Assembly: GCA_001029295.1 (NCBI GenBank)
Contig: LDXJ01000064.1
Span: 186,001 to 250,000 of the forward strand
Length of the DNA stretch: 64,000 bases
Direction: 5' to 3'
Origin: Peptococcaceae bacterium CEB3
GTDB taxonomy: Bacteria > Bacillota > Desulfitobacteriia > Desulfitobacteriales > Desulfitobacteriaceae
The notes beneath the pieces were generated by a model, which made no database searches, was not told where the DNA came from, and saw nothing but the letters and a program-made list of their open reading frames with translations. This document shows positions 9,623-15,522 of this stretch, piece by piece (the first letter of the stretch is position 1; the number at the start of each line of letters is the position of its first letter). The translations under genes and the position numbers were made by a program.

Positions 9623-9820
9623 TCAGCGTACCGCATCCTCATAATAGGCATTCACCTTTTCGAGGACGGGCAGACAATCCTCGCAGACGCACCAACAGGT
9701 TTTCTCGGTTTTTTCCGCGGGTTCTCCTTCGACGACAAAGGTGCACATCAGTTCCGCAGGTTTTTCTTGGTGGCAAATGTCACAGGCGCTGCAGATGATC
9801 GAATGGTCAGGTTCGAGCAT
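9623..9820 (-). CDS. Small cysteine-rich protein of unknown function
   Basis: A 65-aa protein beginning MLEPDHSIICSACDICHQ. Cysteines are arranged as CSACDIC, one MC and a CWCVCEDC cluster, suggesting a zinc ribbon or metal/thiol protein. An upstream ATG would give 84 aa, but AGGGAGG lies 8-9 nt before the ATG at 9820, which favours the short form. It is divergent from the CopZ-like selenoprotein gene, with a 440-bp regulatory region between them, and converges on trxA. I recognise no family. Confidence 0.65.
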   Translation of the reverse strand: MLEPDHSIICSACDICHQEKPAELMCTFVVEGEPAEKTEKTCWCVCEDCLPVLEKVNAYYEDAVR

Positions 9821-9909
9821 GATTTCTGCCTCCCTCTTAAAAATTTTGCCGTTCGCTATCGAACGGATATATTTCATGTGGCGGCCGAGTGCCTCCGCAT
9901 GAAAGTTGG

Positions 9910-10024
9910 CTAAAGTGGTTAAAGTTAGCTAAAGTGGTTACGGTAGAGTGGTTGCGCTAGAGTGGTTATGGTAGAGTGATTTCTGTAAAGTGGTAGCGCA
10001 AAGCGATTCCTGAAAAGCGATTAC
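9910..10024. repeat. Degenerate 14-bp tandem repeat
   Basis: About eight units of the type TAGAGTGGTTGCGC, drifting toward AAAGCGATTCCTGA at the right end. The array lies in the divergent intergenic region (9821-10259) between the Cys-rich gene and the CopZ-like gene. Confidence 0.85.
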
Positions 10025-10030
10025 TATATA

Positions 10031-10081
10031 GTTACTATATAGTAACAGCAAGTTATGCCTTGGTGTGTGACACAGATCACA
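10031..10081. promoter_or_regulatory. Perfect palindrome and CRP-type site upstream of the CopZ-like gene
   Basis: GTTACTATATAGTAAC (10031-10046) is a perfect 16-bp palindrome, with a half-copy just upstream. TGTGA-CACAGA-TCACA (10066-10081) is an exact match to the TGTGA-N6-TCACA consensus of CRP/FNR-superfamily regulators. Both are candidate operators for the divergent genes. No convincing -35/-10 pair was found, and the regulator is unknown. Confidence 0.45.
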
Positions 10082-10259
10082 GTAAAAGGTGATTATCCAA
10101 ATTTTCTGGCAGGGGAATTTATGGCAATAGAGAGAGTGGGTGCTCTCCGTTCAGCCGGCGGCGGTGAGCATGTCCTGGGAATATGGGGGAGAGGAAGCCT
10201 GCGGAGGGTAGAAGGTCCGCGGGCGAGGTGCCAGTCCCTCGAAAGAGAAGGAGGTTCAG

Positions 10260-10733
10260 ATGCAACTGAATGTTAAAAAGTCGACCGCACCGACGGGTGC
10301 CGGATGTCCGCGCTGTGGCGCACCTGCTCAACGGGTGCGCAAGGTTACGGTCGCTCATCAGATGCTGCCCGACATCGAGTTGCCCGGGGACGACGAACAG
10401 TATTTTCTCTGCCGCAACCCGAAGTGTGAGGTAGCCTACTTCCAGGCTGAAGGCAGAGTTTACACACAGGACCGGCTGAAAAACAAGATATGGTTCAAGG
10501 AAATTACGTCCCCGGTTCCAATTTGCTATTGTCTGAATGTGACGGAGGAGGAAATTCTCCACCATGTGGCGGAGGTCCAATGTTGTTCTACGTTGGAGGA
10601 TATTCAGAAACATACCGGGGCGAACACCGGGCATGAATGCCTCACCAAGAATCCCGCCGGTGGCTGATGCTCCGCAGTAGTGCGATCGGTGATCGCCAAA
10701 GGGTTGACCATGCGGAGCGTTCAGGAAGAGTGA
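10260..10733 (+). CDS. CopZ-N-like zinc/[2Fe-2S] protein, probable selenoprotein (UGA at 10665-10667 read as Sec)
   Basis: Relative of the N-terminal domain of archaeal CopZ (known there to bind zinc and a [2Fe-2S] cluster and to reduce Cu(II)) and of the clostridial 2Fe-2S (seleno)protein family. Zinc-type cysteines C16, C19, C51, C56; cluster-type C89-x-C91 and C127 followed by NPAGG. A conventional reading stops at the UGA after residue 135, exactly where Archaeoglobus CopZ continues with Cys-Cys. Reading through gives U136-C137 and 20 more residues to the UGA at 10731, 157 residues in all. A SECIS-like hairpin starts right after the UGA. Start ATG has AAGGAGG 6 nt upstream. The selenoprotein call is inference; the Sec machinery is not in this window. 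Confidence 0.75.
10665..10718 (+). promoter_or_regulatory. Candidate bacterial SECIS element
   Basis: Directly after the UGA, GCTCCGCA (10669-10676) pairs perfectly with TGCGGAGC (10711-10718). Inside is a second hairpin GCGATC-GGT-GATCGC (10682-10696), whose GGU loop lies 20 nt past the UGA, in the range seen for bacterial SECIS apical loops. There is no U-tract after it, so it is not a good terminator. Confidence 0.6.
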
Positions 10734-10847
10734 GGTTAGCGGTGCTTTCGCTATCTTTCGACGTATGCTATAATCGTACAGGTCCCTATTATGGGATTGC
10801 GTTTGCCGCGATGCGAGTAATGTTGCGAGAAATTTGGAAATGAGAGA

Positions 10848-10913
10848 AATTAGGATTAGGTATTAGGGTGAGGTATTAGTTATTAGGATTAGGTATTAGG
10901 GTTAGGTATTAGG
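10848..10913. repeat. ATTAGG-type short repeat upstream of gltX
   Basis: A run of TTAGG/ATTAGG/TATTAGG words (about ten) ends 6 bp before the gltX ribosome site. It resembles telomere-type repeats in sequence but sits in the middle of a chromosome. A TATAAT-like box lies near 10770. Confidence 0.85.
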
Positions 10914-10934
10914 TCTTCAAGGAGATTATTGATT

Positions 10935-15114: not shown

Positions 15115-15522
15115 CGGTTTACTTGGTGGTACGGCAACTCCGTCCTGGAGATTACTTTCAAGAACGCCAAGGGGCAGCTCGCCAGCCAGCTTTTATACAG
15201 GGAAGATGAGGAGCGGCTTTCCGTAGCGGACGGCAGCCTGCCTTGGAGTTTTGATGCGGACGCCGACTTGCTACGCCTCACGTCAGAGGCCTACCGCATC
15301 AACCTTGCCCACATATTTGACCCCTATCTCGCCGTGCACACGTCGGCGATTGAACCGGTGCCGCATCAGATTGCGGCGGTTTATCAGGAAATGCTCGCGC
15401 GCCTGCCGCTCCGCTACATCCTGGCAGACGACCCCGGCGCCGGCAAAACAATTATGACGGGTCTGTTCCTCAACTCGCGGCAGCGGCGCCGACCTGACAA
15501 AACCGAAAGTGGGGCTGCGTAA
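15115..15522 (+). pseudogene. Remnant of a large SNF2/DEAD-type helicase (N-terminal piece)
   Basis: The open frame without a start codon encodes RFTWWYGNSVLEITF..., PWSFDADADLLRLTSEAYRI, HTSAIEPVPHQIAAVY and a Walker A region LADDPGAGKTIMTGLF, then loses homology and stops at 15520-15522. This matches the beginning of large island-borne helicases linked to methyltransferase or DISARM-like systems, which normally exceed 1000 residues. Both ends are missing; the next gene's ATG overlaps the new stop. The remnant suggests a deletion that removed the rest of a defence-type module. Confidence 0.75.

Follow-up and report, generated by a model that had tools for sequence, protein, structure and literature searches.

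The window analysed here, a stretch of 64,000 nucleotides from contig LDXJ01000064.1 of Peptococcaceae bacterium CEB3, carries at positions 10260-10733 of its forward strand a small gene with an in-frame UGA close to its 3' end. A Shine-Dalgarno-like AAGGAGG, read directly at 10248-10254, precedes the ATG at 10260 by 5 nt, and the frame runs through the UGA (codon 136, 10665-10667) to a TGA stop at 10731-10733, giving 157 residues with selenocysteine (Sec) at position 136. An earlier reading, made from the sequence alone, had placed the UGA immediately after an NPAGG motif and had predicted that readthrough would add U-C and 20 further residues before the next stop, both of which the frame translation bears out. 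As this sequence-only reading also anticipated, a gene caller using translation table 11 truncates the gene, leaving an open reading frame of 135 amino acids in which both protein domains can still be recognised. The window holds 24 other long frames with UGA read-through, none of which looked like a selenoprotein by eye.

The first of the two domains is a zinc domain of the zf_CopZ type (residues 16-74, 10305-10481, delimited by the Pfam match and the invariant columns), which matches PF18423 with 67.8 bits over residues 15-74 (cut-off 28.4) and whose Cys16, Cys19, Cys51 and Cys56 are invariant among the aligned relatives. The second is a Bfd-like [2Fe-2S] domain (residues 89-153, 10524-10718), for which Fer2_BFD (PF04324, gathering score 26) gives 26.2 bits with the 135-residue form and 21.0 bits when the tail is included; this domain call is supported by the fold match described below. 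Cys89, Cys91, Cys127 and Cys137 are the likely ligands of its cluster. The product is in this way a stand-alone [2Fe-2S]/zinc protein of the CopZ N-terminal type (CopZ-NT), without a C-terminal heavy-metal domain. Its best NCBIfam match is NF045877, whose score rises from 94.3 to 111.9 bits once the UGA is read through, still below the cut-off of 190 and with profile positions 1-22 unmatched, and the Sec forms of the same GTDB family score at most 112.8 bits with this model. A second model, NF047645 (CopZ_Nterm_CC), gives 87.5 bits, under its curated cut-off of 100. With NCBIfam models that miss the group at their cut-offs and gene calling that stops at the UGA, both the Sec and the fourth cluster ligand are easily lost from annotation.

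Our searches took in 46 genomes from its own GTDB family, 83 from its class and a draw of 398 from its phylum. The UGA occupies the identical codon in 39 distinct relatives, spread over many Bacillota families, and is followed by a conserved tail, (U)C...VQSVIA; Cys, TAA or TAG at this codon occurs in none of the 39. All ten relatives in the genome collection read NPAGxUC and continue into a tail with SVIA, and in the nearest named relative, Acididesulfobacillus acetoxydans, the protein is 89-90% identical and has the same UGA. Against a profile of the Sec forms, every match above about 160 bits has TGA, and no orthologue above 160 bits carries Cys or another stop at the Sec codon, whereas the matches at or below 151 bits are, among those read, Cys forms (a low-scoring full-length match with an internal TGA, G057:C114, was left out of this reading). 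The family alignment that the sequence-only reading proposed as a check is thus uniform at the Sec column, with UGA throughout the Sec group and Cys in the Cys homologues, and relatives ending at this place with a stop other than UGA, which it had named as evidence against itself, were not found: all have UGA and all continue. In a maximum-likelihood tree of 58 sequences a single Sec/Cys change suffices (support 98/93), and judged from these sequences the Sec forms are a single clade, apart from the Cys forms. With one change on the tree and no reversion to Cys in 39 sequences, this is a clean case of Sec/Cys exchange. The clade is also marked by His102 and a Cys108-Cys109 pair (10563-10586), found in 39 of 39 Sec forms and in none of the 18 Cys forms sampled, a contrast that counts as one clade difference and not as 39 independent events. 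Two frames of 65 amino acids (G024:C17:54579-54743 and G014:C23:46473-46637) comprise the UGA-containing 3' part alone and are perhaps gene remnants; no relative of the gene was present in viral contigs.

Downstream of the UGA, the sequence-only reading had described a perfect 8-bp stem enclosing a hairpin with a GGU loop. Both are present in the window, the outer stem pairing 10669-10676 with 10711-10718 and the inner hairpin, a 6-bp stem closed by GGU (10682-10696), starting 14 nt after the UGA with its loop at a spacing of 20 nt. The stem does not hold beyond the genus, the only place where it is perfect: in the relatives it is 52% paired, which rules it out as a general SECIS element. The fate of the inner hairpin is different. 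It reads GCGATC-GGT-GATCGC here and GCAAUC-GGU-GAUUGC in relatives, and its six pairs form in 24 of 24 sequences, with a compensatory change from A-U to G-C at one pair in three of them and a change from A-U to G-U at another pair in two; in the larger set it is identical in 34 of 39 sequences and keeps all six pairs in 38. The tail codons that cover it (GTG, TCG, GTG) do not change among the 24 sequences, although synonymous variation is seen at V, L and R codons close by, a pattern that points to a constraint at the RNA level. Conservation of this kind is what counts, since about 7% of all the TGA triplets in the window have a bSECIS-like stem of 6 bp behind them, and a hairpin in one sequence is therefore weak evidence. 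The 69-nt RNA starting at the UGA folds with -25.8 kcal/mol (z = -2.8 against shuffled sequences), and the inner hairpin alone with -7.1 kcal/mol. Published limits for bacterial SECIS elements are a loop of 3-9 nt with a G in its first two positions, a stem of 4-16 bp, a distance of 16-37 nt from the UGA and a minimum free energy of at most -7.5 kcal/mol (PMC13188914), and the 3-nt GGU loop, the 6 bp, the 20-nt spacing and the -25.8 kcal/mol of the 69-nt RNA all lie within them. The functional SECIS is predicted to be the inner GGU hairpin, and not the outer stem.

The genome of this bacterium (5.3 Mb, 98% complete) encodes the machinery for such decoding, including all four of the genes, selA to selD, that the sequence-only reading had proposed to look for: selA (547 bits), selB (342 bits, or 369 together with its neighbour in frame), the tRNA-Sec (66.8 bits) and selD (404 bits). 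The last of these (L018:1501-2427) has an in-frame UGA of its own, in SGUGCK, and is very likely itself a selenoprotein gene, so that UGA very probably stands for Sec in one or more further genes of this bacterium. Most genomes with the Sec-form gene also have selA. Three from the class set (G030, G041 and G042) have the UGA form and no selA match, and selB and tRNA-Sec are present in all three; these genomes are fragmented or 78-90% complete, and the missing selA is likely due to missing sequence, an explanation that is unproven for G042, at 90%.

It is conceivable that the UGA is a true stop, that the protein ends at Gly135 and that the conservation downstream reflects an overlapping or regulatory element, a reading for which the 135-residue frame of the gene caller, with its two recognisable domains, can be adduced. 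A protein ending there would be without the fourth cluster Cys and without the C-terminal helix, both present in every Cys homologue, and this reading is also at odds with the Sec machinery in the genome and with 39 of 39 relatives that keep UGA, never TAA or TAG, ahead of a conserved protein tail. We regard it as extremely improbable, and the assignment of Sec to codon 136 as virtually certain. The original proposal of a selenoprotein is supported by the machinery, by the conserved UGA and tail, and by the conserved hairpin, and we hold with very high confidence that the gene encodes a selenoprotein of the CopZ-NT type into which Sec is inserted by means of the GGU hairpin. SelB and tRNA-Sec would decode the UGA under the direction of this element, 14 nt downstream, and the predicted product would join a four-Cys zinc domain to a Bfd-like [2Fe-2S] domain with Sec at 136.

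An AlphaFold2 model of the protein (mean pLDDT 81) superposes on the N-terminal domain of Archaeoglobus fulgidus CopZ (2hu9) with Z 14.2 and 30% identity over the aligned part, in agreement with Foldseek, and with zinc and cluster cysteines in common. The two sequences align with E = 4e-15, and this sequence alignment confirms the earlier claim that the UGA falls on a conserved Cys of the Archaeoglobus protein, U136 pairing with C118 and C137 with C119. A. fulgidus CopZ has Cys118 where Sec stands here, and lacks equivalents of H102, C108 and C109. The full archaeal protein also carries a C-terminal copper chaperone domain, which is absent from the window protein. The match to Bfd is more distant (Z 7.1, residues 86-153 on Bfd 1-57; Z about 7 over 57 residues with 4e6k and 6e6s), with the CxC motif shared; Bfd lacks the zinc domain and has neither a Cys-Cys nor a Sec-Cys pair at the fourth ligand, and the Bfd of Pseudomonas aeruginosa reads CCS at the site of C108-C109.

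Which residue of the Sec-Cys pair would bind iron bears on the earlier description of the UGA as lying at a cluster-cysteine position, of which the first half stands, a conserved Cys, and the second probably does not. Model residue 153 corresponds to Bfd residue 57, and with a constant offset Cys137 falls on Bfd Cys41, which we take to be the fourth cluster ligand. In the model, and assuming that the last helix aligns without gaps, Cys137 is the more likely canonical fourth ligand, and Sec136 would adjoin it. In the Cys homologues neither residue of the Cys-Cys pair varies, so that sequence alone cannot pick the iron binder, and Sec136 might itself be the fourth ligand through an Fe-Se bond, with Cys137 as a free thiol; as the modelled superposition puts residue 137, and not 136, on Bfd Cys41, we consider this arrangement unlikely. 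The clade also raises the question of the part that a selenol plays next to a [2Fe-2S] cluster when the protein handles metals.

Selenoproteins of this family are already known as predictions, and the gene is a new member of one of the forms described. A 2026 review lists a “(2Fe-2S)-binding protein (copper chaperone CopZ family) form 1, GxUC” (cd10141, WP_245779778.1) and a “form 2 (Csac_0668), CU” (PMC13188914), a 2022 review lists both forms as well (PMC9312934), and the two reviews credit them to Zhang and Gladyshev 2008 (PLoS Genetics), in whose main text the words CopZ and 2Fe-2S are absent. Compared by its listed description, form 1 is a predicted selenoprotein of the same domain family with Sec then Cys after G-x, and shows no difference in kind from the window protein, which reads GGUC, with G-A/T/S/V/L/R/K-U-C in its relatives. 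Form 2, represented by NF045877 (CopZ_Nterm_CU, Csac_0668), has the same two-domain architecture and may be a different design: in the one form-2-like gene that was read, Sec belongs to a tail at the N-terminus (SCUASN), with the Cys-Cys pair of the cluster intact, unlike the Sec136 site, and the Cys relatives of form 2 lack the H/CC motif of the Sec clade. This gene (L117:523-1011), on plasmid pTPELB2 of Acetoanaerobium noterae, has its in-frame TGA in the Cys-Sec of the tail, and the plasmid table, itself incomplete, has no gene annotated there. The putative iron-sulfur cluster-binding metallochaperones of NF047645 have the same domain with Cys-Cys in place of Sec-Cys. CopZ-family selenoproteins appear to have had no bench study, and what is new here is the single origin of the Sec clade, its H/CC motif, the covariation in its SECIS and its gene neighbourhoods.

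At 0.8-1.2 kb upstream of the selenoprotein gene, the window holds genes for a metal repressor of the CsoR/RcnR type and for a thioredoxin, in an order shared with A. acetoxydans; an opposite-strand gene separates them from the selenoprotein gene. Beside the latter we identified no gene for a copper ATPase. Between thioredoxin and selenoprotein gene, the reverse strand carries a Cys-rich ORF of 84 amino acids (9623-9877) that is conserved in A. acetoxydans and has no Pfam match. A regulator of the MerR type is encoded upstream in several relatives, and the one tested exceeds the mercury-MerR cut-off, while near others we found ACR3, ArsR, an ArsP-type permease, ArsC, an ArsE-like thioredoxin and a DsbD/CcdA-type membrane protein. 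Many Sec forms adjoin housekeeping genes, and neighbours so variable do not settle whether the role concerns metals. The most likely role, to which we give about equal belief and doubt, would be the redox handling of thiophilic metals: a selenolate next to the cluster, beside the ligand Cys137, may bind or reduce a thiophilic ion (Cu, Hg or As), for whose reduction the cluster would supply or relay an electron. Sec-Cys pairs are typical of redox sites, and the pair of this protein, together with its Bfd-like domain, the thioredoxin gene nearby and the many relatives without metal genes next door, would also suit a thioredoxin-partnered redox protein (a thiol/selenol reductase or an electron carrier) concerned mainly with something other than metal resistance. 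The recurrence of mercury-type MerR, arsenic and CsoR-type neighbours and the Cu(II) reduction reported for A. fulgidus CopZ-NT speak against this role, which we consider the less probable of the two. On the side of metal handling, a more specific and rather doubtful proposal is that Sec136, with the clade-specific His102 and Cys108-Cys109, could form a second soft-metal site adjoining the [2Fe-2S] cluster, and that the cluster could reduce Hg, As or Cu bound to the selenolate.

Some further features of the surroundings deserve mention. Scanned with Rfam, the window and the segment 9850-10950 gave just a tRNA-Glu and one match far under its family threshold. A segment of some 120 bp immediately before the gene (approximately 10122-10243) is missing from A. 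acetoxydans (L050) and occurs once in the genome of CEB3, which rules out a conserved leader or riboswitch at this place. Short degenerate repeats of the ATTAGG type and the AAAGTGGTT type flank the gene (10846-10917 and about 9910-10060); in A. acetoxydans they are either shorter or lacking. Farther downstream, an ORF at 15268-15522 resembles, by eye, a truncated helicase fragment and is followed by an acetyltransferase-like ORF.
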